Below are positions 10,549 to 38,330 of a stretch of DNA of 64,000 nt, one piece after another (within the stretch, counting starts at the first letter, position 1; each line of letters begins with the position of its first letter). The stretch is from positions 1 through 64,000 of the forward strand of contig JAGFZX010000001.1 of the NCBI GenBank assembly GCA_017889585.1. The letters run 5' to 3'. The notes under the pieces are model-generated. The model was given only the letters and a program-made list of their open reading frames with translations. It was not told the DNA's origin and ran no database searches. This DNA comes from Bacillota bacterium. Lineage in GTDB: Bacteria > Bacillota > Negativicutes > DSM-13327. The translations under genes and the position numbers were made by a program.

Positions 10549-10602
10549 TTAATCAAATATTAACGTAATCATAATAGTAGAATACTATTTATCCAATATA
10601 AT
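10549..10602 (+). promoter_or_regulatory. Pho box and promoter of phoA
   Basis: Half-sites TTAATC (10549), TTAACG (10560) and ATAATA (10571) are spaced exactly 11 bp. A 20-bp gap leads to the -10 hexamer TATAAT (10597-10602). This matches the PhoP-box form known from Bacillus (TTAACA-type repeats with 5-bp spacers). Confidence 0.75.
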
Positions 10603-10635: not shown

Positions 10636-12120
10636 GTGAATAAAAAGACAAAATGGTTAAGTGGTTCCTTAGTTATTGTCGTGATGTTTATGGCGTTGGT
10701 CATATCCGCATTGCCAAGGCAGTCAACGGTTAATGCTGGTGTTGACAATGGCTACTATGGTAAGAAAGCAAAATACGTATTTTTCTTCATAGGTGATGGT
10801 ATGGCTATGCCCCAGATTACTTCGACGGAAATTTTCAAAGGCACTCTTACAAGTGATAACCCAATGAACCAGGAAAAATTGAGTTTCACATCATTCCCTA
10901 ATTTAGGAATGCAAACAACACATTCCTCTAATTCATTTATCACAGATTCAGCAGCAGCTGGTACTGCCTTAGCCACTGGCCACAAAACAGATAATGATGT
11001 GGTGGGTGTGGACCCCAGTAAAAAAATTAAATTTAAAACCATGGCAGAAATGGCAAAAGAAAAAGGCTTGAAAATAGGGATTGTCTCGAGTGTATCCTTA
11101 GATCATGCCACTCCTGCAGCCTTTTATGCTCATGAGGGAAGTCGTAATGATCTTTATGAAATCGGAATTGATATGGTAAATAGCGGGTTTGACTATTTCG
11201 CAGGCGGGAGCTTACTTCAGCCTACAGGAAAGAAAAAAGATCAAACCAACATATTAGATATTGCAAAAGAGAAAGGTTACAAGATTGTTAATGAGCCAGA
11301 TGCTATTATGAATTTAACCGAAAAAGATGGCAAGGTCATTGCATTTAGAAACGATCTTGCGGCAGAATCAGCAATGCAGTATGATATCGATCGCCAAGAT
11401 AAAACTTCCTTGGCAGATTACACAAAAAAAGGTATTGAGATACTAGATAATCCTAATGGTTTCTTTATGATGGTAGAGGGCGGTAAAATCGATTGGGCCT
11501 GTCATGCCAATGATGCTGCCACTACAGTACGTGATGTTATGTCTTTTGATAATGCCATTATGGAGGCGCTGAAATTCTATGCTTTACATCCCAATGAAAC
11601 TTTGATTGTTGTTACAGGAGATCACGAAACTGGCGGTATGACAGTAGGGTTTGCAGGTACAAAATATACTACAGCTTTCAGTATGATTGGCAATCAGAAA
11701 CTATCTTTTGAAGAATTTGATAAGTCAATTAAAAACTACCGAGAAACTGTTGGTGCTAATGACGCAAATTTAGAAGATTGGCTACCAGTTCTTGCGCAAA
11801 ATTTTGGCCTTACAGAGTTCAGTGATTTTGAAAAAAACCGTTTACAAGAGTCTCTATCAGCTAGCATGATGGATCCTAAAAAGAGAATCAAAGATGAACA
11901 CTCTTACTTATTATATGGCGGTTATGAGCCTTTTTCTATTACCGTTACTCATATTTTAAATCAGAAAGCTGGAATTGGTTGGACTACCTATGCACATACT
12001 GGTGTTGCATTACCTGTATATGCTCAAGGTGTAGGTGGAGAATTATTTGGAGGATATTATGATAATACCGATGTCGCTAAGAAAGTGATGAGTATAATGG
12101 GGGTCGAGTTTCAGCAATAA
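10636..12120 (+). CDS. phoA: Alkaline phosphatase, exported
   Basis: A 494-residue phosphomonoesterase of the alkaline phosphatase superfamily that releases phosphate from organic esters outside the cytoplasm. An N-terminal signal peptide (hydrophobic about residues 8-28) is followed by GDGM (D54, metal), the catalytic Ser in TDSAAAGTALATG (S105), EGGKIDWACHAND, and GDHETGG with metal ligands. It starts with GTG, six bases after AGGAGGG. Being free-standing behind a Pho box, with its own terminator, it should be induced by phosphate starvation. The nearest characterised relatives are PhoA and the Bacillus PhoA/PhoB enzymes. Confidence 0.92.
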   Translation: MNKKTKWLSGSLVIVVMFMALVISALPRQSTVNAGVDNGYYGKKAKYVFFFIGDGMAMPQITSTEIFKGTLTSDNPMNQEKLSFTSFPNLGMQTTHSSNSFITDSAAAGTALATGHKTDNDVVGVDPSKKIKFKTMAEMAKEKGLKIGIVSSVSLDHATPAAFYAHEGSRNDLYEIGIDMVNSGFDYFAGGSLLQPTGKKKDQTNILDIAKEKGYKIVNEPDAIMNLTEKDGKVIAFRNDLAAESAMQYDIDRQDKTSLADYTKKGIEILDNPNGFFMMVEGGKIDWACHANDAATTVRDVMSFDNAIMEALKFYALHPNETLIVVTGDHETGGMTVGFAGTKYTTAFSMIGNQKLSFEEFDKSIKNYRETVGANDANLEDWLPVLAQNFGLTEFSDFEKNRLQESLSASMMDPKKRIKDEHSYLLYGGYEPFSITVTHILNQKAGIGWTTYAHTGVALPVYAQGVGGELFGGYYDNTDVAKKVMSIMGVEFQQ

Positions 12121-13456: not shown

Positions 13457-14179
13457 TTAAGCATCCGATAATAGCTGTAACGATGATACACCAATAATCT
13501 TCTTTACCCTAGCGAAAAAATAGCAAAAAAGATTAACAGTACTTTGATTTGCTAATGGCAATAATACCTCTGTTGCTTTTTTATATTGCTCCACGCTAGC
13601 TTCTGCACTTACATAACTATATAAATCTAAGGCAGTCGATGCATTCTCAAATAAGATTGCAACTGGATTAGAAAAACCAATCTCACCTTTTTGCGAAAAA
13701 GAAAGATCTTGCAAGTTTTTCTCAACCCATACTTCATATTTTTTATGTCCATCAAATAATTGACACTTTGCATGATGGGGAACGCACATGTCTTGTACTA
13801 GATGAGCGGCGGCACCTAAATAAAATATAGCCTCTCTCATATACCCCAGTCTTACATATTTTATTGCTGTATTAATACACTGTAAATAATCCAAAGCGGC
13901 ATTTGAAAAATGCCAAAAACCACGCCGCGTTTTAGGATGTAAAAAATGATGGATATTTTTCCAATTTAAATCAGCCCAAACTACACCATCTTGCAGTTGT
14001 TCATAATATGCACCAATCAGCATAACCTCGTGAATAAAGCCATTTTCTCGTAAAATAGCTAATGCTTGATCATTGCAATATTGATGAGTAATACAGTAGG
14101 AACGATCAATTAATTGCAGTGCAGGATCATCACTAAAGGTAATGGTTTTCAAGCTAGCAGCAACTACATCTTTTAGCAT
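13457..14179 (-). CDS. Zinc-dependent phospholipase C-like protein (copy 1)
   Basis: A 240-residue protein with the metal-ligand pattern of the Bacillus/Clostridium zinc phospholipases C: H32 (THQYCNDQA), D70 (VWADLNW), H77/H78, H126 and D130 (AAAHLVQDMCVPHH), H135/H136, and H145 with E149 (GHKKYE). The secreted enzymes begin with a ligand Trp after signal cleavage; here there is no signal peptide and no such Trp, so it may act on the cytoplasmic face. Its ATG overlaps the stop of the glycosyltransferase gene (TAATG), so the two are translationally coupled. The inferred role is to cleave phospholipid to diacylglycerol for that enzyme. A paralogue with the same neighbour is at 37539. Confidence 0.82.
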   Translation of the reverse strand: MLKDVVAASLKTITFSDDPALQLIDRSYCITHQYCNDQALAILRENGFIHEVMLIGAYYEQLQDGVVWADLNWKNIHHFLHPKTRRGFWHFSNAALDYLQCINTAIKYVRLGYMREAIFYLGAAAHLVQDMCVPHHAKCQLFDGHKKYEVWVEKNLQDLSFSQKGEIGFSNPVAILFENASTALDLYSYVSAEASVEQYKKATEVLLPLANQSTVNLFCYFFARVKKIIGVSSLQLLSDA

Positions 14180-15360
14180 TATCTAGCACCTGCTTTCTTC
14201 CAATATTCTGGATTAGGCACAGTTCTCTTTATACTATTCTCAGCAAAAGTATTTAGTTTTTCTGCTATCCGAATACCAGCATTTTGGGGACTAACTTCAG
14301 CACATTTTTTCTGCATTCTTCTTAACATCTCGGGTTTATCAAATACAATCTTTGCAATTTTTGATATAATATCGCCTTCGTCCTTAATCCAAAGTCCAGA
14401 GCCTTGTTGGTGAAGATAGTTAGCATTTTCCTCTTCCTGTCCAGGTAATGGGTTGAGTAAAATCATCGGAAGGTTGACGGCTAAGGCTTCACTACAGGTA
14501 AGTCCACCCGGCTTAGTAATTAATAAATCAGCCTCTTTCATCAATGACGCAATATGAGTTGAAAAGGATAATACCGTAATTTTATTGCGTAATGATTTTG
14601 TCAGGAACATTAATTGCTGTTGTAATTCTTCATTTTTTCCTGTCACAACTGTCACTTCCACAGCACTCGGTAGTTCCTCCAGTTTACATAAAGTTTTCTC
14701 CATCCGTCCAAAACCTAATCCCCCACCCATGACCAATAGCTTGGGAACTTTATTCATGACTACTCTTTCAGATGGCTTAAATTGACTGCCAACAGGAATA
14801 CCACTGACCGTAACCCCACCAGAAGAAATCCCATATTCCAGCAACTCCTTTGCCATCACTTCATTAGCAATAAAATAATGATCAACCCCGCCTGCAACCC
14901 ACCAAGGATGTACTGCAAAATCTGTAATCACTCCAGACAATGCATAGCTCAGCCTTTTCTTATCACGTAATGATGAGGCTGCTCCTAACGGAAACGGATG
15001 TGTGCATACCACTGCATGAGGACGATAACGTGTAATAAGACTCGCCATATTTTTTTGATTAGCGGCATTAATAAAATCAAGTATTTTGCGAGTTTGCTGA
15101 TTTTCAGTAATTTTATATAGTTCCTTGTATACATTCGGTGCAATCTTAAGCATTCCATAATAAGATGTTTTCATTACATTCATTAGTTCTATTTGTAAAC
15201 GATTTAATTTGGGATATCGGAATTGACCAACCTGTAGAAAATCAACTACTTCTACCGAGCAAGAATTATTAGCCCTTAATTCTTCATATAACGCAGTCGC
15301 GGCCTGCATATGCCCATTTCCTATTGATGCTGAGACAATGAGAATCTTCTTTGATTTCAT
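14179..15360 (-). CDS. MGDG-synthase-like diacylglycerol glycosyltransferase (copy 1)
   Basis: A 393-residue GT28-type enzyme. The N-terminal lipid-acceptor domain opens with SASIGNGHMQAA, the glycine-histidine loop of MGDG synthases and UgtP. The C-terminal nucleotide-sugar domain carries VMGGGLGFGRME and KPGGLTCSEALA. The family moves a hexose from a UDP-sugar to diacylglycerol at the inner face of the cytoplasmic membrane. GAGAGG lies seven bases before the ATG at 15360; the longer upstream reading has no ribosome site. It is the first gene of a two-gene unit with the phospholipase C-like gene, behind a Pho box, which argues for phosphate-free glycolipid production under phosphate stress. 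The sugar and product are not known. Confidence 0.85.
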   Translation of the reverse strand: MKSKKILIVSASIGNGHMQAATALYEELRANNSCSVEVVDFLQVGQFRYPKLNRLQIELMNVMKTSYYGMLKIAPNVYKELYKITENQQTRKILDFINAANQKNMASLITRYRPHAVVCTHPFPLGAASSLRDKKRLSYALSGVITDFAVHPWWVAGGVDHYFIANEVMAKELLEYGISSGGVTVSGIPVGSQFKPSERVVMNKVPKLLVMGGGLGFGRMEKTLCKLEELPSAVEVTVVTGKNEELQQQLMFLTKSLRNKITVLSFSTHIASLMKEADLLITKPGGLTCSEALAVNLPMILLNPLPGQEEENANYLHQQGSGLWIKDEGDIISKIAKIVFDKPEMLRRMQKKCAEVSPQNAGIRIAEKLNTFAENSIKRTVPNPEYWKKAGAR

Positions 15361-15417
15361 AATCACACCTCTCATTATATATATCATCAACCGAATAGTC
15401 CTCACGCTTATATATTG

Positions 15418-15471
15418 ACAATACCATAATTGTTACAACAATAAATTATGCTTATATTAATTTTTAGTTAA
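15418..15471 (-). promoter_or_regulatory. Pho box and promoter of the first glycosyltransferase-PLC pair
   Basis: On the minus strand, TTAACT (15471-15466), TTAATA (15460-15455) and ATAATT (15449-15444) are spaced 11 bp. A 20-bp gap leads to -10 TATTGT (15423-15418). The whole layout matches the promoter of the chemoreceptor gene at 25137-25190. Confidence 0.75.
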
Positions 15472-15628: not shown

Positions 15629-17752
15629 TTATACCTTAAACTGAGATACTAGATTTTCTAGCTCATAAGACATTCCATGGAGTTTTTCAATAGAAAAAGT
15701 AATTTCCTGAGATGCAGCTGCCTGTTCCTCACATACTGCGGCAATTTCATGTGCACTGCTTGTATTACGAGATGCTAACATGCTAATGCTCGACACGGCT
15801 TCCATAGCTTCTCTACATAAGGCCACTTGACTTTCCGTTTCTAAGGTAATTCTATGAGCCTGTAACTGAACATGACGTACAGCTTCCACAATTTTTTCAA
15901 AAGCAACACCACTGGTTTGCGCCATTTCCAATCCCTGTTCTACATGTTCAACACTTTGCTGCATCGCGGTAACGCTACCACTGGTTTGCGTTTGAATCCT
16001 AGTAATGAGTACTGAGATGTCTTTAGCAGCGCGAGCCGACTGCTCGGCTAGCTTCCTCACTTCATCGGCCACTACAGCAAAGCCCCGCCCTGCATCCCCA
16101 GCCCGAGCGGCTTCAATGGCCGCATTTAAGGCTAAAAGATTAGTCTGACTAGCAATTTGGCCAATCATACCAGTAATTGCCCCAATTTCTCTCGTGCTTT
16201 CCCCTAATAAGTCAACAGTCTTGGCGGTACCATTAACAAGTCCTTTTATATTCTCCATCTTAGTCACTGTATCATTAATGACCCCTTGCCCCTGTACAGC
16301 TGCGGATGAACACTCATCACTCGAAACGGCTACCTGCTGAGTACTATCTGAAACAGTAACTGTAATATCAACAAGTCTTTGCAACAGTTCTTCTGTTCTT
16401 TTTGTATCTTTTCCCTGCTCAGCGATCTGCCTAGCAATCCCTTCTACAGACTGTGATACCTGAATACTACCCACCCGTGACTGTTCGGAAGTGGCGGCAA
16501 CACTATTGGTTGATTCTAAAACAAGAGCCGATGACTGTTTTACTGACTGAACAATCCCCTGCAAGCTAACTGTCATACTATTGAAAGCCTTGGCCAAATA
16601 GCTTAATTCATCATGCTTGTATTTCATCATGATATGGGTTAAATCTCCCTGAGCGACAATTTCTACACCTGCAGCTAATTCTTTCAAAGGTGCCAATGCT
16701 TTCCTAGTAAGAAATAAACCAATAACGATAAATAGTATAATCATAAATAACGTGACCATCGTGCTATTCTCCACCATATCATAAGCTGATTGTAGGGCTA
16801 CTTGCTTGGGATAGGCAGATATAGCAATCCAATCGGTATTTGCAATAGAACGGTAAGATATAAAGTACTCCTGTCCACGAATCTCGCCTAGGGTGGTGCC
16901 TGTCTGTTTTTCCGCAGCCTCATTATAATACCCATCACTTAATTGTTTCGACTCAGCAACTGCTGCTGAATTCCCTGGATAGAATATAGGTACCCTCTTC
17001 TTATTGATGATTGTAATTGAATATCCTGGGTTCTGGGATAATATCTGCTCAACAACACCATTCACATTCTGTAATGATATATTGGCTCCCAAAACGCCTT
17101 TTACTTTATTATCTGCTCCTAAAATAGGCGCTGAAGCAATAATGGTCATTTGATTCGTAACTTTACTATGTATGGGATCGGAAAATTGAATATAACCTTG
17201 TAATGCTTGTTTGAAGTAATCTCGATCAGCAATATTCACTAGAGCAGCACTATCAGTCCGAAAAATTTGATTACCATCAGCCAAGGCAACAAACAGAGCA
17301 TCATTACTGCCATAGTAAGGTTTGATCTGGGCAAGATATCTTGCTATAGTATCTTTTTGCATCTCACGTATGCCACTATCAGCACTTGCAACCATCAAAA
17401 AGTTTTTCTTTGATAAAATATTAGACTGAATATCACTGGCAATTCGATCAGCAACTTTATTATTTTTTTCAACTGCCGCCTGGGTGAGACTCTCCATTGT
17501 CTGTATAGTAAAATACCAACTAATTATACTGAGTGGAATAATACATGTTAGAATTATTAATATGGTAGCTTGAGTAGCAAGAGACGACCAAGAAAATCTA
17601 GCAATGATCTGACGAAAAGTTTCTGCCTTTAGTAATTTGAATTTAAAGGATAGTTGAATAATTTTCTTCATTCTCAGCGCTATAACCCTTGTCTTGAATA
17701 ATTCAAAATGCGAAGGTAGTTGTTTTATCCGCTTCATGATTTGCTTAAACAT
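15629..17752 (-). CDS. Methyl-accepting chemotaxis protein, dCache sensor (1)
   Basis: A transmembrane chemoreceptor of about 707 residues. After a basic cytoplasmic leader come one membrane helix, an extracytoplasmic double-Cache-like domain (about 220 residues, with [11 protein letters not shown]), a second helix, a HAMP domain and the signalling helices. The hairpin tip reads [22 protein letters not shown], as expected for CheA/CheW binding. The start is uncertain: the ATG at 17752 has GGAGGG about 14 bases upstream, while an in-frame TTG at 17803 has no better site. It lies downstream of pstS and its terminator, and upstream of the lipid pair. The ligand is unknown. Confidence 0.85.
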
Positions 17753-17820
17753 ATGTCGAACGTTCGCCCTCCATCCATAATAAATATTAAATGACCAGGC
17801 CAATCATAGGTAGGTGGTCT

Positions 17821-17884: not shown

Positions 17885-18742
17885 TTATTTCTTCATTTTT
17901 GTAATCGGTACAAATCCATTCTTTTCAGCAAATGAATCTTGGAATTCTGGGCTAGTTGCATAGTCCATAAATGCTTTTACAGCACCAGTTGGTTCACCCT
18001 TAGTAAACATGCGACCGAAAGTATATACAGGATAAGTTCCATTCACAACATTCTCAACAGAGTATTTAACGCCATTATATGCTAGGCCTTTTATGCTTTG
18101 GTCCACATAAGCTGCGTCCACATAACCAATCGCACCAGGCGTACTGGCAATAGCCGATCGCACCGCACCATTGGAATCTTGAATAACCGCATTATCAGTG
18201 AAGGCTGCATTGTTAAGAACTACCTCGGCAATCGTAGCACGGGAACCTGAAGATTTTGCACGATGAACCAAAGTGATTTTCTGATCTTTACCGCCAACGT
18301 CTTTCCAGTTAGTGATTTTACCAGTCATGATATCAACATACTGCTCTTTAGTCAGATTATCAACACTTACATCAGTATTAGCAATAAACACAAAAGGAAT
18401 TCCTACAAGCTTAGTTTCCACAAGGCCTTTATCTTTCAAGGTGTCTTGCAGAGCAACATCAGAGTTACCAATATTAACTGCTCCAGTAGCTACTTGGTTT
18501 TGTCCTGTAAAGGATCCACCCCCTGCAATCGTCACAGTCGCCTTAGCATATTTCTTTTGGAATTCTTCCTGAGCTGGTTTTAATAAAGGAAGTAAAGCAG
18601 TAGAACCAGATGCAGTCACTGTTCCTTGAACGTCAGTCCCTTTAGCTTCTTCTTTTTTACCACCACAGCCAGCAATCAAGCTAGCCCCTAATGCCAATGT
18701 CATAACCGCCATAAGCATTTTATTTTTCTGAAAAAATTTCAT
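17885..18742 (-). CDS. pstS: Phosphate ABC transporter substrate-binding lipoprotein
   Basis: A 285-residue periplasmic phosphate-binding protein. The signal ends in the lipobox LIAGC (Cys26), so it is a lipoprotein. The phosphate-binding segments of PstS are visible: TASGSTALLPLL near residue 42, GAVNIGNSDVAL, and RAKSSGSRATIAE. It delivers phosphate to PstCAB, whose genes are not in this window; the gene is followed by its own terminator and stands alone. GGGGGA precedes the ATG by about eight bases. A three-site Pho box with a TACAAT -10 lies directly upstream, so phosphate-starvation control is strongly supported. Confidence 0.93.
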   Translation of the reverse strand: MKFFQKNKMLMAVMTLALGASLIAGCGGKKEEAKGTDVQGTVTASGSTALLPLLKPAQEEFQKKYAKATVTIAGGGSFTGQNQVATGAVNIGNSDVALQDTLKDKGLVETKLVGIPFVFIANTDVSVDNLTKEQYVDIMTGKITNWKDVGGKDQKITLVHRAKSSGSRATIAEVVLNNAAFTDNAVIQDSNGAVRSAIASTPGAIGYVDAAYVDQSIKGLAYNGVKYSVENVVNGTYPVYTFGRMFTKGEPTGAVKAFMDYATSPEFQDSFAEKNGFVPITKMKK

Positions 18743-18774: not shown

Positions 18775-18828
18775 ATTGTAAAGTAATACGTTTTTTTATA
18801 TGTTAAGGCCATGTTAACGTTTTGTTAA
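18775..18828 (-). promoter_or_regulatory. Pho box and promoter of pstS
   Basis: Three identical TTAACA half-sites on the minus strand (18828-18823, 18817-18812, 18806-18801), each separated by five bases, then 20 bp, then -10 TACAAT (18780-18775). This is the cleanest Pho box of the window and serves as the reference. Confidence 0.88.
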
Positions 18829-18841
18829 TACTAACCACTTT

Positions 18842-20674
18842 TTATTCGATACAATAGCAGCTTTCCCAAATCAGTTTGCATTTCTTTTTCACAACACTGG
18901 CGGCTTCAGCCAAATCCGCTGGATTTTTGAAAATTTGCCCTATACTTGTCAGGACTGCAATGGAAAGGGATACTACCGGAAAATTTTCTTCTACCCCATG
19001 TCGATTTTTGGCAACAATATAACCACGCTTTATGTCCTCTTCTGCATAAAAACCTCTGATCCTCACATCAAAATAATCAATAATAGTTTGACATACAGAT
19101 ATGACGTCAATATCTCTTACTACAGCAATAAAATCGTCACCACCAATATGACCGATAAATACATCCAGCATATTACTATCTTTAAATTGATCTTGAATGA
19201 TCTGAGCAGTCATACACAAAACTTTATCGCCATTGTCAAAACCATAAGCATCATTGTAGGCTTTAAAATTATCTAAATCAAAATACAATACCGAATAAGG
19301 CTGCCCAGCATCAATCACCAACTTTAATTTTTCCTCAATTAGAATGTTTCCTGGCAGACCGCTGAGCGGATTGCTGTGTTTTGCCCATTTGATCTCCAAA
19401 TCAGTGGTTTTTTCCAGCAATTGTTTGACTGTAGTGATGCCATAATATTTATTACTCTTGGTTATAACAATATAATCATATAAACTATCCTCCCCCCTGG
19501 CTACGGCTAATTTTGATACCTGCTCCAAAGGTGTGTTATAATCTACAACCAAAAAATTCTGATCCATTAAGAGTCCAGCAGGTCTATTCATATAAACGGC
19601 AACTCCATATTTAGTGGCTAAATGAGTCAGAAATTTATTTTTCATTAGCAGCCCCACTGGAGTGTCCCCCTGTAGAATAGTGATGCCCATCACATTAGGA
19701 TTATCGTTAAAATGATCCAGGACTTGACCGCCTGTTACCACGGCAGAAAAGCCTTGATCTCGACGACCAATTTCGCCAATGGGCATGGTTAAGGCAGTTT
19801 GAAATGCCTCCTGTTTTTTTCTATGATTTTTACTAATGATAGCATCTTTAACCCCTGGACTAATATCTAAAAACTGGGCAGCAGGTCTCTGTAGCAGATA
19901 GCCCTGACCATAAGGTATACCAATATTAATTAGGGTATTTAACTCATCAAATGTTTCAATACCTTCGGCAATCATTTTCATATTGGCCACAACAGAAAAT
20001 TCATAAAACGCTTTCATTAGCCCTTTTTTAAAAGCATCCTTATCAATATTCCGCACTAAATCCATATCTATTTTAATAAACTGGGGCCGGGTTTCAGCTA
20101 ACAATTTGAGCCCTGAATAGCCTGATCCTGTGTCATCAATTGCAATTTTATAACCCTGGCTAGTATAATTATCAAGGACTTTTCGAAAACTTTTATAATC
20201 TTCAATTGAGTTTTTTTCCGTAATTTCAAAAATAATATTACTAGCATCAATCTGATAATGAGCTAACATGTCCAAGGTAACGCCCTTTTGGAACCGAGGA
20301 TCGTTAATGATTTTGGGATCAACATTGACAAAAAGCATCTTATCCTTTGGCAAACCATTGGCTCTAGCGAAGGCCTTGCTTCGACAGAGGAACTCTAGTT
20401 CCCAGACCTTATTAAATTGTTCAGCTGCTGGGAATAGAACATCTGGTCTCTCTAACAATGATCCCTTTGGACCCCGACTCAAAGCCTCATAGCCAAAAAC
20501 CTCCCCATCTACAAGAGATACGATGGGCTGAAAAATAGCCTTAATATCTTTAGACTTCAGAATTATTTCTAGTTCATTATAGGTTTCTTGTTCCTCCTGA
20601 CTATAGGTATTGTTACTCTCTATAATCTTTTTATTCATCATATCATCTATATTGAGTCTAATCACATCTCCCAT
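18842..20674 (-). CDS. EAL-CBS-GGDEF cyclic-di-GMP protein
   Basis: A 610-residue cytoplasmic protein. The N-terminal EAL phosphodiesterase domain (about residues 35-275) has YEALSRG, FEITE, AIDDTGSGYSGL, KIDMDL and AEGIE, so the metal-binding and catalytic set appears intact. Next come paired CBS modules (about 300-430) and a C-terminal GGDEF domain (about 440-600) with LYFDLDNFKAYND, where the signature reads GGDDF instead of GGDEF/GGEEF. It may degrade c-di-GMP while the GGDDF part is a sensor or a weak cyclase. A CBS-GGDEF paralogue without the EAL part is at 34577. A Pho box drives it, and it is divergent from the PhoR-like kinase. Confidence 0.9.
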   Translation of the reverse strand: MGDVIRLNIDDMMNKKIIESNNTYSQEEQETYNELEIILKSKDIKAIFQPIVSLVDGEVFGYEALSRGPKGSLLERPDVLFPAAEQFNKVWELEFLCRSKAFARANGLPKDKMLFVNVDPKIINDPRFQKGVTLDMLAHYQIDASNIIFEITEKNSIEDYKSFRKVLDNYTSQGYKIAIDDTGSGYSGLKLLAETRPQFIKIDMDLVRNIDKDAFKKGLMKAFYEFSVVANMKMIAEGIETFDELNTLINIGIPYGQGYLLQRPAAQFLDISPGVKDAIISKNHRKKQEAFQTALTMPIGEIGRRDQGFSAVVTGGQVLDHFNDNPNVMGITILQGDTPVGLLMKNKFLTHLATKYGVAVYMNRPAGLLMDQNFLVVDYNTPLEQVSKLAVARGEDSLYDYIVITKSNKYYGITTVKQLLEKTTDLEIKWAKHSNPLSGLPGNILIEEKLKLVIDAGQPYSVLYFDLDNFKAYNDAYGFDNGDKVLCMTAQIIQDQFKDSNMLDVFIGHIGGDDFIAVVRDIDVISVCQTIIDYFDVRIRGFYAEEDIKRGYIVAKNRHGVEENFPVVSLSIAVLTSIGQIFKNPADLAEAASVVKKKCKLIWESCYCIE

Positions 20675-20726: not shown

Positions 20727-20780
20727 ATACTAACTAATTATTTATTCTTCAATGTTAATTAAAGATTAATTTTATGTTAA
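20727..20780 (-). promoter_or_regulatory. Pho box and promoter of the EAL-CBS-GGDEF gene
   Basis: Minus-strand half-sites TTAACA (20780-20775), TTAATC (20769-20764) and TTAACA (20758-20753), 11 bp apart, then 20 bp, then -10 TAGTAT (20732-20727). The direction points to the c-di-GMP gene rather than to the divergent kinase. Confidence 0.78.
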
Positions 20781-20872: not shown

Positions 20873-22651
20873 ATGTTTAAATGGGGTATCAAATTTAGAC
20901 TCATTGTTACTTATCTTGTATTAATTTTACTCACCATGTCACTATTAAGCAGTTATCTATTATGGTTTTTTTACCAACACAACTTAGAAATATTAACATC
21001 CAGCCTGCTCACACACGCGGGCGTTACTGAACAGTTTTTGGAAGATCATATGAAAGGTCCTAAGGAAAAATCCAGTATTGATAAGCGTATCAAAGAGCTG
21101 GCTACCAAGAATGATCTTAGAATCACAGTCATTGATAGCACTGGTACTGTGATTGCTGATTCTTGGGAAAATCCGGAACTCATGGAAAATCATTTAGAAC
21201 GCCCTGAAATATCCACCGCCCTAATTGGAGGTCAAGGTAATTCCATCCGTTACAGCACCACCATTAACCAGAACATGCTGTATGTGGCCATTCCTGTATG
21301 GCAAGAAAGTGAAATAGCAGGGGTTGTCCGAATCGCCAGCACCCTTGCCGCAGTTGATGCTGGCTTTAATCGTATCAGATCCACCCTCCTTGCCGCCATT
21401 TTTCTGACCGCGTTATTGGCAATTGCCCTCAGCATTCGCTTAGCCCAAAAATATACTGCTCCCTTAGAAGAAATAACCACCGCCGCCCGGGAAATCGGAG
21501 ATGGCAATTTAGATCGCCGCCTGCACATACGTACTGGCGATGAACTAGAACTGCTGAGCCATACTCTTAACAACCTAGCATCCAATCTTGATGATAAAAT
21601 CAATGAATCAATTGCTGAAAACCAAAAGTTCTCCCTCATACTTCAGCATATGGACAATGCCGTCATCCTCCTTGATCGCTATGGACGAGTAACAACCGCT
21701 AATAAAATGGCTCGCAACATCTTTGACATTAAAGATTCTATGTTGAATCAACATAATATTCAGGTTCTGGGTAATAGTCAGCTAGACCGTTCAATACACC
21801 AGACCATTAACAGCGGTAAAAGTCTGCGTATGCATCTTAAAACCAATATCCATGGCAGCAAGCGGGTATTTCAGGTGTTTCTAGCCCCCATTACTGCCAA
21901 TGAAAATGATATAACCGGCGTCTTAAGCGTGTTTCATGATATCACTACCCTCCAAGATCTGCATGAGCGCCAGGCAGATTTTGTTGCCAACGCTTCTCAC
22001 GAACTGGCTACTCCTCTTACAGCCATAAAAGGCTTCGCCGAAACACTGCTAGATGGGGCCATCGACGACCCCAAACTCAGCATTAAATTTGTCAATATCA
22101 TTCATACGGAAGCTGAACGAATGCAGCGCTTGATCAATGAGCTACTACAATTAGCTAAGCTCAATTCTCAGGAATACCGCCAGCAGGTCAAATTAGAACG
22201 GACTGATCTGACACCATTACTCCATAAAGTACAACAATATCTTGCCGCAAATGCGATGGAAAAAAACATTATCATTACCATTGATGCTCCTACTGAGCCA
22301 ATCACCATCATGGCTAACCCCGATTGGCTCAAGCAAGTACTCATTAACCTACTGGATAACAGCATCAAATATACACTCTCCGCCGGCCAGGTCATTTTGA
22401 AGTGTCATCAAGAAAATAACCAAGCAATACTGATGGTAGAAGACTCTGGTATTGGTATTCCCGCTACAGACCTGCCACTAATTTTTGACCGTTTTTATCG
22501 AGTCGATAAGGCTCGTGCTCGCAGTGCTGGAGGAACTGGCCTGGGGCTAGCAATTGTGAAATTCATCGTCGAAATGCATGGTGGGCGCATTGATGTAAAA
22601 AGCACTATAAATAGAGGCACTACCTTTACTATTACGTTGCCATTGGCGTAA
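20873..22651 (+). CDS. PhoR/WalK-like sensor histidine kinase
   Basis: A 592-residue membrane kinase: helix (about 10-32), an extracytoplasmic sensor of about 130 residues, second helix (about 168-190), HAMP (YTAPLEEITTAAREI), PAS (about 255-355), HisKA with H376 and HATPase_c with NLLDNSIKYT and GGTGLGLAIVK. The domain order is that of PhoR/PnpS. The H box reads SHELATPL, with Ala where Arg is usual. No response regulator gene follows, so the PhoP partner must be elsewhere. Its position facing a Pho-box gene and near pstS supports a role in phosphate sensing, but PhoR cannot be told from WalK on sequence alone. Confidence 0.85.
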   Translation: MFKWGIKFRLIVTYLVLILLTMSLLSSYLLWFFYQHNLEILTSSLLTHAGVTEQFLEDHMKGPKEKSSIDKRIKELATKNDLRITVIDSTGTVIADSWENPELMENHLERPEISTALIGGQGNSIRYSTTINQNMLYVAIPVWQESEIAGVVRIASTLAAVDAGFNRIRSTLLAAIFLTALLAIALSIRLAQKYTAPLEEITTAAREIGDGNLDRRLHIRTGDELELLSHTLNNLASNLDDKINESIAENQKFSLILQHMDNAVILLDRYGRVTTANKMARNIFDIKDSMLNQHNIQVLGNSQLDRSIHQTINSGKSLRMHLKTNIHGSKRVFQVFLAPITANENDITGVLSVFHDITTLQDLHERQADFVANASHELATPLTAIKGFAETLLDGAIDDPKLSIKFVNIIHTEAERMQRLINELLQLAKLNSQEYRQQVKLERTDLTPLLHKVQQYLAANAMEKNIIITIDAPTEPITIMANPDWLKQVLINLLDNSIKYTLSAGQVILKCHQENNQAILMVEDSGIGIPATDLPLIFDRFYRVDKARARSAGGTGLGLAIVKFIVEMHGGRIDVKSTINRGTTFTITLPLA

Positions 22652-23062: not shown

Positions 23063-25030
23063 CTAAATCCTAAACTTAGACACTATTGCCTGCAGATTTC
23101 CCGCCATACTGGATAGATCCGTACTGGAAGAGGCAATCTCTTGGATAGATGCGGTTTGTTCTTCAGTAGCAGCAGATACCGTTTGTGCTTGACCAGTAAC
23201 ATCCTTACTAATCTGCGCAATGTCTTTTATCGAAGATACAATTTGCTGACTACCACTTGCCATCTGTTCAATGGCCGCAGAAATATCACGAATTTGATCC
23301 GACACTTCTGCAATAAGTAATGCAATCTCGCTAAATGATTGCCCTGCAGCACTAGCGACTTCAGTACCTTTTTTTACTTCACTAGTACCCTCGTTCATGG
23401 CCAGTACAGCAGTATTCGTATCTTCCTGAATATCTCCAATTAAGACAGCAATCTCTTTAGCCGCATTTTGAGACTGCTCCGCGAGTTTTCTAACCTCCTC
23501 AGCTACCACAGCAAAACCACGACCTTGTTCGCCAGCCCGAGCAGCTTCAATAGCAGCGTTTAATGCTAGTAGATTCGTTTGACCGGCTATTCCCGCGATA
23601 GTATCGACGATTTGCCCAATTTCCTTAGAGCGCTCACCGAGCTTAGCCACTACTTGCGCTGAATTAGTCACCGAAAATTCAATATTAACCATCTGACTGG
23701 TAACTTTTTGGACAGCCTTCCCACCTTCTAAGGCCGTATTTGATGTTTTCTCGGCCGCAGCAGAAGCGCTACCAGTATTTGCAGCAATTTGCTGAAGGCC
23801 TGCTGACATTTGTTCAACTATATTCATTGTGTCATCTACAGCCTGCATTTGGTGCGATGTTCCGTTGGTCACATCTATTATTGCAGTTGCTACTTGATCT
23901 GCAGCCTGGGCCAATTGTTCTGTGCTTGCTGTAAGCTCTTCGGAAGAAGCTGATACTGTCTCGCTTGCCTCCTGGACTTCAATAATCATTTTCTTAAAAT
24001 TCCCAATTGCTGTTGACAGAACACTGGCCAAAATTCCAATCTCATCCTTAGATGAGGAAGTAATGACCATAGACAGATCTCCGTCGCCAATCTTCGCAAC
24101 TTGCTTGCAAATTTCCTCAATTGGTCGTAACACTTTGAGAAGGAATATCCATGCAAAAAGGCCGACAGCAATAAGAGCCACTAAAAGTGCAAGGACCATG
24201 GTAGTAAGACTAGCATAAAAATCACTTTTGATCTCACTCTGAGGCATACTAACAAGAGCCACCCACGGGGTATTCTTGATTGGTACAGCCAAGGCTAGAG
24301 AATCTCTACCGGCAGAATCAGAATAAGACATCATTTTTCCTGAATTCGCTATCAAAGATCGCAACATATCCTCAGGAACTTTTTTTTGTTCTTTAATCAA
24401 ATCTTTGTTCGTATGAGCTAGTATCGATCCATCTTGAGCAACTATACCAACCACTCCGGCTTCGCCAACTTTGACTGGCGCCAAGAAATTTTGTAGGGTG
24501 TCTAAAGAGATTGATTGCGCAACAATTCCTGCCATTTTGCCGTCTTCCACCTTGACCGGATGTGTAACAATGACTGAAGGCATTCCTGTTACCCTGTTTA
24601 CTATCACATCGCTGATGTGTGACTTCTGGTCCTTCATCGTGTCTTTAAAGAAATCCCGGTCAGCCACACTACCTCCTATGCTTTTAGCATCGTACGGGGC
24701 TGAGGCAAATCGCGCACCCGCGGAATTGATAAACACCAGACGATCGATTCCCCATGTGGCAGCAAAATATGTATTCATTTTCCCTTGTATGCGTGAAACA
24801 TCCCCTGACTTAAGATCAGGATCTTCACCGTAAAATTTTCCACTTCTTGAAAAGGAAAAAAATAATTCACTGACCCCACCCGCAAGCTGAGAAGCCTGAC
24901 CATTCATACCCACTTGAGTGTTGTGCAATATTCTTCCATAGAGAACATACATACCTGACCCTCCGATGATGAGTCCTGTCACGAGAAGGGCGATCAGCAG
25001 CAATGTAACGGTTTTTGCTTTAATAGACAT
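23063..25030 (-). CDS. Methyl-accepting chemotaxis protein, dCache sensor (2)
   Basis: A 655-residue chemoreceptor. Membrane helix at about residues 7-30, a double-Cache-like sensor ([12 protein letters not shown], then [10 protein letters not shown]), second helix at about 280-300, HAMP, and the signalling domain with [19 protein letters not shown] at the tip. AAAGGAG lies a little upstream of the ATG. Unlike receptor 1 it sits directly behind a Pho box whose layout is shared with the lipid pair, so it should be induced when phosphate is scarce. Whether it senses phosphate or a carbon or phosphonate compound is unknown. Confidence 0.88.
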
Positions 25031-26639: not shown

Positions 26640-28157
26640 TTATTGGCTAATGATCAATTCAAAACCTGTTTCTTTTTTAAACCATTTACTGTGTTTATTT
26701 ATAGATTGCAATTCCAGGGGAATAGCTTGCATGGCTTCTAATCTTAGCTCCGCTTTTTTATTTGTAAACACGGTGGTTACTTTTTCTACAAGTTTCATTT
26801 GAGTGGTATCAAGACTTTCGGCTACTGCCAATAATAGGGCTAGTTTGCGGGCTGTTTGCCAGTTGCCTTCATCTAAGAATTCGTTATAGATTTTATTGAA
26901 GGCGTGTTTAGCGGAAGAACTATGATGCCAACCAACAATGAGAGATGCCATAATTTGTTCTCGATGAGAAAGTCCGAAGAGACGGGCATTTTCCACTAAA
27001 TACGCACTGTGGCGCGCATGGTCATAATAATTAATACTAATGCCGATATCATGTAGTACGGCAGCAACATGTAATAGTATTTTATCAGCGGGATTTAAAT
27101 TTAGTATTTGCTGCCATTCATTAAATAAATTATTGGCCAGTTTGGCAACATGATAGGCGTGAGTAGTATTGCCATTGTAAGATAATAAGGTGTTATGTAT
27201 GCTTTGTGTAAGAGGATCCGTTAAGGTTTCTGTTTGTCCGCCTTGGGAGAAGTAATACTGCAAAAATAATCCTTCTCGTACGCCGCAGCTACTAATAATA
27301 AGCTGGGTGCTCTCTATCTCTTCAAATAAGTTTTTGACAATTGCCAGTCCAGCTAGAATGATATCAGCACGGTCGTTGCTGAGACCAGGTATTTTACGGC
27401 GTTTCTCACATGACATTACTTTAACATCTTGCCACAATGAATGAAAAGCTATCGAGCTGGTGCGATAGTTATGGAGTTTGAGTATCGGGTAATTTTTGCG
27501 TTTTTGTTCCATTTTAGCAATGCCACGGGCTGTTCCCCCAATACCGATCAAAGGGACGCCCAGGTTTTTTAACCAGGGAATTTTATCAAGTTCCTGCACA
27601 ATAAAGGTATCTAGGCTGGCTAATTGTGCCTCGCTCGCTTTCTTTTGCAAGTTAAAGCGCTCTGTCAAAGTAACGGCACCAAAAGGCAAGCTGATAAATT
27701 TCTCAGCTTTTCGATCTTTTATTAGTGTTAGTTCAGTGCTGCCACCGCCTAAGTCAAAGAGCACAGCATCTGTAACGTTAAGAGTATTAATTACTCCGAT
27801 ATAGCCTAGTTTGGCCTCTGTTTCACCGCTAATGATTTTAATGGTAATTCCTGTTTCCCCTTTAACGTTCTCTACAAATTCTGTGCCGTTATGGGCATTG
27901 CGTATGGCTGCTGTGCCTACGGCTATGATTTTATCGGTATCATGTAATTTGCAAATATGTGCAAAATTTTGTAACAAGGTCATCCCACGAGCCATGGCGA
28001 CCGGTTGTAGTTGCTGATTTTTATCTGCGTCCTGACTTAGGCGGATCGTTTCTTTTTGGTGGTAGATGAGATTATAGGCTCTGTTTTTATATATTTCTAC
28101 AATAATTAAACGGGCCGAATTTGATCCTAAATCAATAATCCCAATTCGTTGGCTCAT
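26640..28157 (-). CDS. ppx: Exopolyphosphatase / GppA phosphatase with HD-like C-terminus
   Basis: A 505-residue member of the Ppx/GppA family that removes phosphate from polyphosphate ends or hydrolyses pppGpp. The ASKHA fold is visible: GIIDLGSNSARL at residue 6, GTAAIRNA near 93, LFDLGGGSTEL near 144. The C-terminal half (about 320-505) is helical with HVAAVLHDIGISIN, as in long Ppx proteins with an HD domain. It shares its strand with ppk across about 320 bp holding a possible small gene, so polyphosphate synthesis and breakdown are encoded together. I see no Pho box before it. Confidence 0.88.
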   Translation of the reverse strand: MSQRIGIIDLGSNSARLIIVEIYKNRAYNLIYHQKETIRLSQDADKNQQLQPVAMARGMTLLQNFAHICKLHDTDKIIAVGTAAIRNAHNGTEFVENVKGETGITIKIISGETEAKLGYIGVINTLNVTDAVLFDLGGGSTELTLIKDRKAEKFISLPFGAVTLTERFNLQKKASEAQLASLDTFIVQELDKIPWLKNLGVPLIGIGGTARGIAKMEQKRKNYPILKLHNYRTSSIAFHSLWQDVKVMSCEKRRKIPGLSNDRADIILAGLAIVKNLFEEIESTQLIISSCGVREGLFLQYYFSQGGQTETLTDPLTQSIHNTLLSYNGNTTHAYHVAKLANNLFNEWQQILNLNPADKILLHVAAVLHDIGISINYYDHARHSAYLVENARLFGLSHREQIMASLIVGWHHSSSAKHAFNKIYNEFLDEGNWQTARKLALLLAVAESLDTTQMKLVEKVTTVFTNKKAELRLEAMQAIPLELQSINKHSKWFKKETGFELIISQ

Positions 28158-28481: not shown

Positions 28482-30557
28482 CTACTTTATACTGACTTGC
28501 TCTATTGCAAAAGCGCGTCCAGCTCTGATTTCAGCCTCCCGAAATAGCTCTTCCTGACTATCGATAGCCCTACCTCGCCTACCCGTAGGGCGGTAATAAC
28601 CATCACTGTTCATTATATAAGCTCTCCGATTATCCTTAAGCATAATTTCTAAAATAGCTTTTATACGTGCACTATTTTCTTGACCATCTACTGGAAATAA
28701 TAATTCCACCCGTTCACTTAAATTACGATTCATCCAGTCAGCACTGGATAAGTAAATGTCAGCCCTGCCGCCATTAGCAAAATACACAATACGATGATGT
28801 TCTAGAAAGCGCCCGACAATACTCCGCACTGTAATATTGTGACTAACACCCTCAATACCTGGTATTAAAGAGCAAATACCGCGAACAATAAGCTGAATTT
28901 TAACCCCTTTACTAGAAGCCTCATATAATTTAAGAATTATCTCTTTATCCAATAAGGAATTCATTTTAGCAATAATATGTCCGCCTTTTCCTGCTTCAGC
29001 AAACTCAATTTCCCGCTCAATGAGTTCCTTCAAACGCGTCCTTAAACTGACAGGAGCAACCACCAATTTCTTCCACAAGGGCGGTTGGGAATAACCCAAG
29101 AGCATATTAAAAAATTCAGAAGCATCAGCACCAACTTCTCTATTGGCAGTAAATAAGCTCATATCTGTATACAGACGAGCAGTGGTATCATTATAATTGC
29201 CTGTTCCCATATGTATATAGCGTCTAATGCAATTTGCTTCCTGCCTGATAATCAATGCCATCTTACCATGGACTTTTAAACCAACTAAACCATAAATAAC
29301 ATGACAACCTGCTTCTTCCAACCGCCGTGCCCATAAGATATTGTTTTCCTCATCAAACCGAGCCCTGACTTCTATGACGACAGTCACTTGTTTACCATTT
29401 TCCGCAGCTTGGACCAGAGCCTTTACAATGGACGAATTACCACTGACTCTGTACAATGTTTGTTTAATCGCCAATACATTAGGATCAATAGCTGCTTGAC
29501 GAATAAAACTCACAACTGGTCTAAATGATTCATAGGGATGATGCAGCAAAATATCTTTATCTCGAATCACGTCAAATAAATTTTCAGCGTCTTGAAGGTC
29601 AAGGGGAGTTTGCGATGTAAAAGGGTCATGACGTAAATGATCATAACCAGGTAAAGCAGTAATACTCATAAAACATGAAACATCAATCCGCCCACTAATC
29701 TTATAAACATCCTGCCCTGCAATTTCAAATTCCTCTAGCAAAAAGTCTTTCAAAAAAGTCTTCTGGGTTTTAGCGATTTCTAAACGCACCGGTTCCCCTC
29801 GTTTGCGCTGACGTAAAGACTTTTCCACTTCAACTAGCAAATCTTCAGCGCCTTCCCCATCAATCAATAAATCCGCATTCCGCGTAATGCGAAAAGGGAT
29901 AACCTCTTTAACAAGATAACCGCAAAACAAATACGCACAATAGCTTGTAATAATATCTTCTAAAAAAATAAAGGTATTGCCCTTGCCTTGGTCTGGCACT
30001 TCAATAATTCGCGGCAATACACTTGGTACCGGAATGATTGCAATCTGACTTTCTTCTTTACTCCTACTGAGCAGCACTGCCAAATTCAGCGTTTTATTAG
30101 CTAATAAAGGAAAAGGGTGGCTAGCATTAATTGCGAGTGGAGTCAGGATGGGGTAAATTGTGTTATAAAAGTAATCATCCATCCACTCTCGTCCAGTACT
30201 AGATAAACCTTCCACATTCTTTAAAAAAATGTTTTCCTGTTGCATACAATCAATAATTCTCTTCAAAAACCGATACTGCTTGTGCACCAAATTACGTACG
30301 CTCTGATCAATTAATCTTAGTTGTTCTTCAGCCCCCAGACCGGCAGCGTCCTTTTTTGAAATGCCACTCTCTACTTGTTGTTTCAGCCCAGCAACTCGAA
30401 TCATGAAAAATTCATCTAAATTAGAACTGGCAATCGCTACAAACTTTAGTCGTTCCAGCAATGGTTTACTAAGATCATTGGCTTCATTCAGCACACGATC
30501 ATTAAATTTCAGCCAGCTTAATTCTCTGTTCAAGAAATATTCTTCTTTATCAAACAT
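28482..30557 (-). CDS. ppk: Polyphosphate kinase 1
   Basis: A 691-residue enzyme that polymerises ATP gamma-phosphate into polyphosphate. The N domain opens with FLNRELSWLKFNDRVL, and the head domain follows. The two PLD-like catalytic domains carry the family histidines (VHGKMALIIR with the autophosphorylated His, near residue 430, and LEHHRIVYF near 590) and GTGNYND. Length and order are typical of PPK1. A ribosome site of the form GGGTGG lies close to the ATG. With ppx downstream it forms a polyphosphate module. No good Pho box was seen upstream. Confidence 0.93.
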   Translation of the reverse strand: MFDKEEYFLNRELSWLKFNDRVLNEANDLSKPLLERLKFVAIASSNLDEFFMIRVAGLKQQVESGISKKDAAGLGAEEQLRLIDQSVRNLVHKQYRFLKRIIDCMQQENIFLKNVEGLSSTGREWMDDYFYNTIYPILTPLAINASHPFPLLANKTLNLAVLLSRSKEESQIAIIPVPSVLPRIIEVPDQGKGNTFIFLEDIITSYCAYLFCGYLVKEVIPFRITRNADLLIDGEGAEDLLVEVEKSLRQRKRGEPVRLEIAKTQKTFLKDFLLEEFEIAGQDVYKISGRIDVSCFMSITALPGYDHLRHDPFTSQTPLDLQDAENLFDVIRDKDILLHHPYESFRPVVSFIRQAAIDPNVLAIKQTLYRVSGNSSIVKALVQAAENGKQVTVVIEVRARFDEENNILWARRLEEAGCHVIYGLVGLKVHGKMALIIRQEANCIRRYIHMGTGNYNDTTARLYTDMSLFTANREVGADASEFFNMLLGYSQPPLWKKLVVAPVSLRTRLKELIEREIEFAEAGKGGHIIAKMNSLLDKEIILKLYEASSKGVKIQLIVRGICSLIPGIEGVSHNITVRSIVGRFLEHHRIVYFANGGRADIYLSSADWMNRNLSERVELLFPVDGQENSARIKAILEIMLKDNRRAYIMNSDGYYRPTGRRGRAIDSQEELFREAEIRAGRAFAIEQVSIK

Positions 30558-36126: not shown

Positions 36127-36179
36127 TTTACGAATTTTTAACATATCCATAACCTACAAAATTTTCATTCCTGTACAAT
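36127..36179 (+). promoter_or_regulatory. Pho box and promoter of the second glycosyltransferase-PLC pair
   Basis: TTTACG (36127), TTAACA (36138) and ATAACC (36149) at 11-bp period, a 19-bp gap, then -10 TACAAT (36174-36179). Confidence 0.68.
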
Positions 36180-36249: not shown

Positions 36250-37431
36250 ATGATAGATATCCCAAAAAAGATTATGTTTGCAATATCTGATACAGGCGGT
36301 GGACATCGCAGTGCCGCAACAGCAATTATTGCCGCACTTGATCCAAACAATAGTCCACAGTGCTCTATTGTTGATTTCTTGCGAGCAACAGGTTTTCCTG
36401 GTTTAAAACAGGCACCAGAAATCTATGATTATTGTTCAATAAATCATCTCTGGTTAAACAACCTATTTTTTCAAAAGACAAACAGCATCAATCGCATAAA
36501 TGCACTAACACGAATGATTTACTTCCAATGTCGACAACAACTTGAACGGGAATTAAAGAATATAGAGCCTGACATGGTCGTCGCAGTTCATCCACTTGTC
36601 ATTGGCTTGTTACGTATGGTCCGGAAAAACTCCAATGCTACCTGGCCAATCATAACAGTGGTAACAGACCTGGTTACACTTCACGCCTCTTGGGCGACCC
36701 CCGGAGCAGACTTATATTTGGTTCCCACACAAGAAGCCTTTCACTCCTTGGTTAAATATGGAGTTCCCGGCAGCCGTATTATCTTTACAGGCTTTCCAGT
36801 ACACCCAAAATTCACGGGTAGCCAAGTAATACAGAGTGAGGCTCGCACCAAACTGAACATCGAATTGGATCGATTCACGGTTTTGATGACAGGGGGTGGC
36901 GTTGGTGCCGGAAATATGAGGGAATGGATAAATACTTTAGAACAAGAATGTTGTGATAAGCAAATCTTGATTATAACAGGTAATAATAAGCAATTATACA
37001 ATGAACTAATGAATGATCAAAACCGTTCTGATCGCCTGCGTGTATATGGTTTTGTTAGCAATATGGAGACATTGATGTCTGCAAGTGATGTTATTATTTC
37101 AAAAGCTGGACCAGGCACAATTATGGAAGGCATTACTATAAAACGACCACTCATCATTACTGAAGCAGTTGGTATACAGGAAACTGGCAACATTGATTAT
37201 ACCATTAAAAGACAATTGGGATATTATTGCCCTATTCCCACAGCAGCGTGCAAAATAATTAATGAAATAGCTACGAAAGTACGTAATGACGATAGACTTT
37301 ATAATCATGAAGAAATCATTACAAATGGCTCTATGCGCATAGCTGATATTATCCTTGCCCAATTGAATGGAATAGGGTCCATAAATCAGCCTCCTATCGA
37401 AGAGCACAATACTATTTTTCGCGGCGCATAA
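36250..37431 (+). CDS. MGDG-synthase-like diacylglycerol glycosyltransferase (copy 2)
   Basis: A 393-residue GT28-type enzyme, paralogous to the one at 14179. It has the acceptor-loop motif ISDTGGGHRSAA at the N-terminus, VVTDLVTLHASW in the middle, MTGGGVGAGNM at the start of the sugar-nucleotide domain and SKAGPGTIMEGI for UDP-sugar binding. The HASW and GPGT variants differ from copy 1 (HPWW, GGLT), so the sugar or acceptor may differ. GAAGGGG precedes the ATG by about seven bases. It is followed after 107 bp by a second phospholipase C-like gene on the same strand, repeating the pairing at 13457-15360. Confidence 0.85.
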   Translation: MIDIPKKIMFAISDTGGGHRSAATAIIAALDPNNSPQCSIVDFLRATGFPGLKQAPEIYDYCSINHLWLNNLFFQKTNSINRINALTRMIYFQCRQQLERELKNIEPDMVVAVHPLVIGLLRMVRKNSNATWPIITVVTDLVTLHASWATPGADLYLVPTQEAFHSLVKYGVPGSRIIFTGFPVHPKFTGSQVIQSEARTKLNIELDRFTVLMTGGGVGAGNMREWINTLEQECCDKQILIITGNNKQLYNELMNDQNRSDRLRVYGFVSNMETLMSASDVIISKAGPGTIMEGITIKRPLIITEAVGIQETGNIDYTIKRQLGYYCPIPTAACKIINEIATKVRNDDRLYNHEEIITNGSMRIADIILAQLNGIGSINQPPIEEHNTIFRGA

Positions 37432-37538
37432 TAATCTCAGCCATATGATTGCCTGAAGATGGCACCTGTTACGAATTTTAGAACATTCTACTATGTTATG
37501 AATAGCTACACCGTCCATAATATGAAGGAGGTACTGGC

Positions 37539-38330
37539 ATGCATTTACCAACTCTAGGCAATTATCTGGCGGTTGGCGGGGCCAAACTAGTACTGACAAC
37601 AATTAGCCCATTTCAGAAATTGTTTGATCCTCCAGGAATCACTCATGAATTTTGCAATCATCAAGCCATGACTATTTTACATAATGATGGTTTTGAGCTT
37701 TATGCAAAATTTCTTACTACATACATGACAGAGCTAAAGGCTGGAGTATACTGGGCTGATAAAGGTTGGAGAAATGTTAGTCACTATTTTGAACCTTCAA
37801 GCGGCAAAGGATTGTGGCAGTTTGCTACCGCTATCGAAACATTCCATAGTTATTACCAACAAGGGATACATGATATGCACCGCAAAAACTATCGCCAAGC
37901 AGCATTTTTGCTTGGCGCTGCAGCTCATTTGATGCAAGATCTCTGTGTGCCTCATCACGCCCGAGCCAAAATTCTCTCTGGGCACAAAGAATATGAGTCT
38001 TGGGTTCAGCAATGCTATGCTAATTATGCTGTTGCAGGCAATGGCATGTATAATCAAAATTCAACTCTAGCTACTCAACTACTTGACAATGCGGTGGTGG
38101 CAGCTGATTTGTTTGACTGGGTCAATCTTGACAGAGGCGCAAGTAACTTTCATGACGCAACCACTATTCTTCTCCCACTAGCACAACGTTCTACAGCTGG
38201 ATTATTTCTGAAATTTTGTGCATCATTTAGTAATATCATCCACCACCTAATGACTCCAGCCATCTCAAACGATGGTATTGGAAGGGGAGACTGGAGAGTG
38301 GCCTGCAATCGTAGCAGTAACAGCTTTTAA
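37539..38330 (+). CDS. Zinc-dependent phospholipase C-like protein (copy 2)
   Basis: A 263-residue paralogue of the protein at 13457. The ligand set is complete: H36 (THEFCNHQA), D74 (YWADKGW), H82, H130 and D134 (AAAHLMQDLCVPHH), H139/H140, H149 and E153 (GHKEYE). It has no clear signal peptide. GAAGGAGG is seven bases before the ATG. The last 25 residues have no counterpart in copy 1 and run into sequence next to the IS1182 remnant, so the natural C-terminus may have been altered by that insertion. Pairing with the preceding glycosyltransferase supports a lipid-turnover role. Confidence 0.82.
   Translation: MHLPTLGNYLAVGGAKLVLTTISPFQKLFDPPGITHEFCNHQAMTILHNDGFELYAKFLTTYMTELKAGVYWADKGWRNVSHYFEPSSGKGLWQFATAIETFHSYYQQGIHDMHRKNYRQAAFLLGAAAHLMQDLCVPHHARAKILSGHKEYESWVQQCYANYAVAGNGMYNQNSTLATQLLDNAVVAADLFDWVNLDRGASNFHDATTILLPLAQRSTAGLFLKFCASFSNIIHHLMTPAISNDGIGRGDWRVACNRSSNSF

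Follow-up and report, generated by a model that had tools for sequence, protein, structure and literature searches.

The window, by which is meant the whole 64,000-nucleotide stretch of DNA analysed here, comes from a Pelosinus-like bacterium and carries two overlapping genes on its reverse strand. GT1 (14179..15360) encodes a 393-aa MGDG-synthase/UgtP-like glycosyltransferase (GT) of family GT28, with the domains PF06925 and PF04101, and PLC1 (13457..14179) encodes a 240-aa homologue of the zinc-dependent phospholipases C (PF00882). At the junction, TAATG, the TAA stop codon of GT1 shares one base with the ATG start codon of PLC1 (position 14179), and the ATG at 15360, which matches the starts of the Pelosinus orthologues, is the likely start of GT1. 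The first-pass annotation had the genes, their overlap and their coordinates correct. Ahead of GT1 is a candidate Pho box, TTAACTAAAAATTAATATAAGCATAATT (15444..15471, reverse strand), whose three 6-mers recur with an 11-bp period in the degenerate layout TTAACT-N5-TTAATA-N5-ATAATT.

Phosphate genes and a second pair in the window

Around the pair lie genes for a phoA-type alkaline phosphatase (10636..12120, forward strand; PF00245, 1.9e-74), which has a degenerate Pho box at 10549-10576; the phosphate-binding protein PstS (17885..18742, reverse strand), which scores 205.9 bits against TIGR02136, just under the cut-off of 206.6; and a PhoR/PnpS-type sensor histidine kinase (20873..22651, forward strand), which reaches 402.4 bits against the NCBIfam PnpS model (cut-off 400) and scores higher against the WalK model (444), yet under WalK's own cut-off. 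Genes for an exopolyphosphatase (ppx; 26640-28157) and a polyphosphate kinase (ppk; 28482-30557) follow on the reverse strand, both over the cut-offs of their models (TIGR03706 and TIGR03705, respectively). Judged by its predicted gene content, the region from 10.6 to 30.6 kb around GT1-PLC1 is a phosphate-economy island; phoB, pstB and phoU are on another contig than the window.

The reverse strand also encodes an EAL-GGDEF protein (18842-20674), upstream of which there is a Pho-box-like triple (20753-20780), and EAL relatives of this protein are encoded directly downstream of PLC genes at the related loci L027, L029, L030 and L062. The second GT-PLC pair, described below, is preceded by a CBS-GGDEF gene (34577-35590). 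The placement of these EAL/GGDEF genes suggests that cyclic-di-GMP may be linked to the phosphate/PLC system. Additionally, two methyl-accepting chemotaxis proteins are encoded inside the island (15629-17803 and 23063-25030, reverse strand), possibly for phosphate-related taxis.

The second GT-PLC pair, absent from the first-pass annotation, occupies positions 36250-38330 of the same window, on the forward strand. It consists of GT2 (36250..37431), an MGDG-synthase-like glycosyltransferase (PF06925, 1.6e-23) that is 26 % identical to GT1, and PLC2 (37539..38330), a zinc PLC homologue (PF00882, 1.1e-12) that is 37 % identical to PLC1. Upstream of GT2 is a weak Pho-box-like triple, TTTACGAATTTTTAACATATCCATAACC (36127..36154, forward strand), with a score of 15/18 that is not significant alone. 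A third MGDG-type glycosyltransferase is encoded on contig C70, where no match to PF00882 was found.

Families and predicted activities of the two proteins

Lipid renovation by PlcP and Agt is known from Sinorhizobium, Agrobacterium, marine Alphaproteobacteria, Pseudomonas aeruginosa and Methylosinus (PMC4796936, PMC8528852, PMC9239053). The GT1-PLC1 pair resembles that system in that genes for a phospholipase C and a diacylglycerol (DAG) glycosyltransferase form one operon with a Pho box ahead, and, by analogy, the same chemistry and trigger are proposed for it; it differs in occurring in another phylum and in having a Pho box of the TTAACA 11-bp type. The identification of GT1-PLC1 as PlcP-Agt proper was rejected because both enzymes come from other families, which bears out the earlier suggestion that the pair is an independent version built on a zinc PLC.

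Whereas PlcP is a manganese metallophosphoesterase, PLC1 has the zinc-PLC fold. It matches Zn_dep_PLPC (PF00882) at 2.5e-13, with 50.7 bits against a gathering score of 26.8, and matches no other Pfam family, the metallophosphoesterases to which PlcP belongs included; among the NCBIfam models, none names it. The structures of the Bacillus cereus and Listeria PLCs were matched by a profile of 45 PLC homologues, with E-values of 1e-18 to 3e-20. The AlphaFold2 model of PLC1 (pLDDT 87, pTM 0.85), in which about the first 25 residues are predicted with low confidence, found 2huc as its best match in Foldseek (7e-8); every top match was a PLC, with TM values over the query of 0.63-0.72, and strong fold matches were confined to PLC structures, S1/P1 nucleases matching weakly. 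In fold, Pfam family and eight metal ligands, PLC1 is like the secreted zinc PLCs, i.e. B. cereus PC-PLC, Listeria PLC and the clostridial alpha-toxin family. It is unlike them in being without a signal peptide and without the N-terminal Trp, and in that its gene is paired with that of a lipid glycosyltransferase.

The ligands in question, H32, D70, H78, H126, D130, H136, H145 and E149, were placed by alignment with the zinc-binding residues of B. cereus PLC, and they are invariant in an alignment of 45 divergent PLC homologues. In secreted zinc PLCs, the N-terminal Trp binds the third zinc. No Trp was found upstream of H32 in either PLC1 or the family consensus, just as the first-pass annotation had said of an enzyme with all its metal ligands but that one, and the activity of PLC1 is for this reason not guaranteed. 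The annotation's further remark that a signal peptide is lacking agrees with hydropathy, which gave no hydrophobic core (the maximum over 15 residues is 1.0 for PLC1 and 1.3 for PLC2). Given the absent Trp, the poorly modelled N-terminus and the lack of an evident signal peptide, PLC1 probably resides in the cytosol and has an altered site for its third metal. The possibility that it is exported to scavenge phospholipid from outside the cell was considered and rejected, there being no signal peptide. The missing Trp ligand and the low-confidence N-terminal 25 residues would also fit a PLC homologue that is catalytically dead and assists the glycosyltransferase by binding lipid or by regulating it; however, the invariance of the eight remaining ligands across such divergent homologues is unexpected for a pseudoenzyme and makes this idea highly improbable.

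For GT1, the best Pfam matches are MGDG_synth (PF06925, 4.2e-30) and the GT28 C-terminal domain (Glyco_tran_28_C, PF04101, 7e-17), so that it is of the GT28, MGDG-synthase/UgtP type and not of the type of Agt, a GT4 family glycosyltransferase. GT1 shares its domain architecture with the processive diacylglycerol beta-glucosyltransferase UgtP/YpfP and with plant MGDG synthase, its best PDB matches being 9wde, an enzyme of the former kind (3.8e-44), and the plant enzyme 4wyi (6.8e-21), and the GxGH and QExxN motifs, with further motif residues, are invariant in the GT alignment. It differs from these enzymes in having a Pho box, in being coupled to a PLC, in having a separate unpaired paralogue in its genome and in falling under the NCBIfam equivalog cut-offs. 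Since its match to PRK13609 (2.8e-69) is below the equivalog cut-off, with 233.9 bits against the 500 needed for diglucosyl-DAG synthase, the prediction applies to the family and not to the exact product, acceptor or sugar. As a member of the DAG glycosyltransferase family, GT1 is predicted to transfer a hexose to diacylglycerol.

Pho boxes ahead of the pair

Pho boxes were scored as three copies of TT[ACT]A[CT]A with five bases between them, the maximum being 18. The GT1 box reaches 15/18, which alone is not significant against shuffled sequence (p about 0.12), so that the case for a Pho box, as first proposed for this pair, rests on orthology and on two controls. As to orthology, the box is aligned in position with that of other Pelosinus. 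When the spacer was varied over the 41 regions ahead of paired GTs, 39 of them from related loci and two from the window itself, 23 reached at least 16/18 at spacer 5, as against zero to two with any of the spacers 1-4 and 6-11. The same genomes also provided 20 unpaired GT paralogues, and none of the regions upstream of these reached 16/18 (0/20; p=8e-6); the p-value is only indicative since related genomes are non-independent samples, the spacer control being the stronger argument. In Desulfosporosinus, 12 of the 15 regions upstream of a pair in the order PLC-GT reach 16 and none does so at the other spacers from 2 to 8, and the box score is 17 at another two pairs with the reverse order, L162 and L166. 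Across the class, these comparisons strongly support the prediction that the Pho box before the pair is genuine, being far commoner than chance.

In the genome as a whole, the only zero-mismatch match is the perfect triple box of pstS, TTAACAAAACGTTAACATGGCCTTAACA (18801..18828, reverse strand), and on contig 12 a one-mismatch triple motif occurs between phoB and pstB and again after phoU. When one mismatch was allowed in a genome-wide scan, control matches were as numerous as true ones, so that a regulon cannot be defined from the scan, whose informative boxes are limited to the perfect one of pstS and those at phoB-pstB-phoU.

The control with unpaired GTs also bears on what the glycolipid is for. 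Enzymes of the UgtP type make glycolipid anchors in monoderm Bacillota, and the pair's product could likewise serve another purpose, such as an envelope anchor, a sporulation membrane or resistance to antimicrobial peptides, and phosphate could be one signal among several. In keeping with the last of these, glycolipids formed under phosphate stress shield P. aeruginosa against polymyxin B (PMC8528852). However, the genomes that hold the pair also hold a separate MGDG-type GT with neither PLC nor Pho box, and in the GTs tested the box accompanies the PLC-paired one alone, which renders such a purpose decidedly unlikely.

Distribution, origin and proposed role of the pair

The search for the pair across Clostridia and Negativicutes that the first-pass annotation had called for was positive, and it additionally uncovered the reverse-order version in Desulfosporosinus. 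The PLC occurs in 55 of the 301 Negativicutes genomes, and a GT is adjacent, with a gap of up to about 210 bases, at 47 of the 62 PLC genes that these contain. The 47 pairs span 46 genomes, 26 genera and 18 families, and all but one (46/47) have GT then PLC on one strand. Pelosinus fermentans JBW45 also has the pair (L010). With few such GTs per 4-Mb genome, we estimate that chance would place one beside a given PLC gene in well under one percent of cases. In Desulfosporosinus species the PLC gene comes first and the GT gene second. In the PLC tree, Negativicutes and Desulfosporosinus fall into separate supported groups, many GT-less relatives stand alongside the Desulfosporosinus rows, and the starred branches require four or more label changes for each gene order. 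The simplest reading of the tree is that the two orders were assembled independently, although they may represent rearrangement of one old pair.

Elsewhere in the phylum sample, PLC genes mostly lack a neighbouring MGDG-type GT; outside Negativicutes and Desulfosporosinus, some PLCs of the family adjoin instead a GT4 (L025, L058), EAL-type proteins or, at L028, a diacylglycerol kinase. In a Desulfotomaculum MAG (L025:4881-7101), a PLC with a perfect 18/18 Pho box is followed by a GT4, and at L058:4941-7679 two consecutive PLC genes are followed by a GT4 glycosyltransferase, apparently a case of the same PLC family paired with a different glycosyltransferase family. In Pelosinus bin.460 (L068:4998-5452), the PLC is split over two reading frames (109 and 78 aa) beside an intact GT, being either a pseudogene or an assembly error.

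That many family PLCs lack a GT, that PLC1 lacks the Trp and that S1/P1 nucleases have a fold related to that of the zinc PLCs, as in the weak Foldseek matches, would suit a PLC homologue that acts as a phosphatase or phosphodiesterase on something else, such as phosphatidic acid, phosphatidylglycerol phosphate, glycerophosphodiesters or nucleic acid, in which case the pair would salvage phosphate without making glycolipid in bulk. With PLC1 nearest to true PLCs in both profile and fold, and with the repeated pairing specifically with a DAG-glycosyltransferase family, salvage of this kind appears unlikely.

Instead, GT1-PLC1 is probably a PhoB-controlled operon for membrane-lipid remodelling, in line with the interpretation in the first-pass annotation, which the sequence evidence supports. 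This reading draws on the coupling of PLC and GT and its conserved recurrence, the Pho boxes, the phosphate-gene neighbourhood, the fold and metal ligands of the PLC, all of which are observed, and on the assignment of GT1 to the DAG-glycosyltransferase family. It is further favoured by the lack of an export signal, by phoB, pstB and phoU elsewhere in the genome with a like box before pstB, and by the GT4 or diacylglycerol kinase neighbours of some other PLCs of the family; the absent Trp, the degenerate boxes of the window, the sub-cut-off scores of the GTs and the GT-less state of most PLCs elsewhere counsel caution. When phosphate is scarce, PhoB would bind the 11-bp-period boxes and GT1-PLC1 would be switched on. 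At the inner membrane, the cytosolic zinc PLC would then cleave phospholipids into diacylglycerol and phosphorylated headgroups, the phosphate of which could be recycled, and the GT28 enzyme would glycosylate the diacylglycerol with the hexose of a UDP-sugar, giving a phosphorus-free glycolipid. Induction, the activity and substrate of the PLC, the flow of diacylglycerol between the enzymes and the identity of the glycolipid are thereby predicted from sequence and structure models.

Recurrence of the pair across relatives suggests that phosphorus-containing membrane lipids are swapped for sugar lipids by enzymes other than those of proteobacteria. With rather more belief than doubt, it can further be proposed that Bacillota have a lipid-remodelling pathway of their own for phosphate starvation, a non-orthologous counterpart of PlcP-Agt that combines a cytosolic branch of the zinc PLCs, with a two-metal or differently ligated site, and a GT28 enzyme, and that was assembled at least twice, as GT-PLC in Negativicutes and as PLC-GT in Desulfosporosinus. 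No description of a zinc-PLC/GT28 pair was found in the literature searched (Pelosinus, Negativicutes, and zinc PLC with glycolipid and phosphate), most subscription journals lying outside its scope. Replacement of membrane lipids under phosphate stress is known chiefly from Proteobacteria, marine bacteria, cyanobacteria and plants. If true, the present proposal would add a wide range of anaerobic Bacillota with unrelated enzymes to this list, would represent convergent evolution of the same solution and would mean that the fold familiar from secreted zinc PLCs also has a housekeeping function inside the cell. Since Negativicutes are diderm, it would also bear on how both of their membranes change as phosphate runs out.
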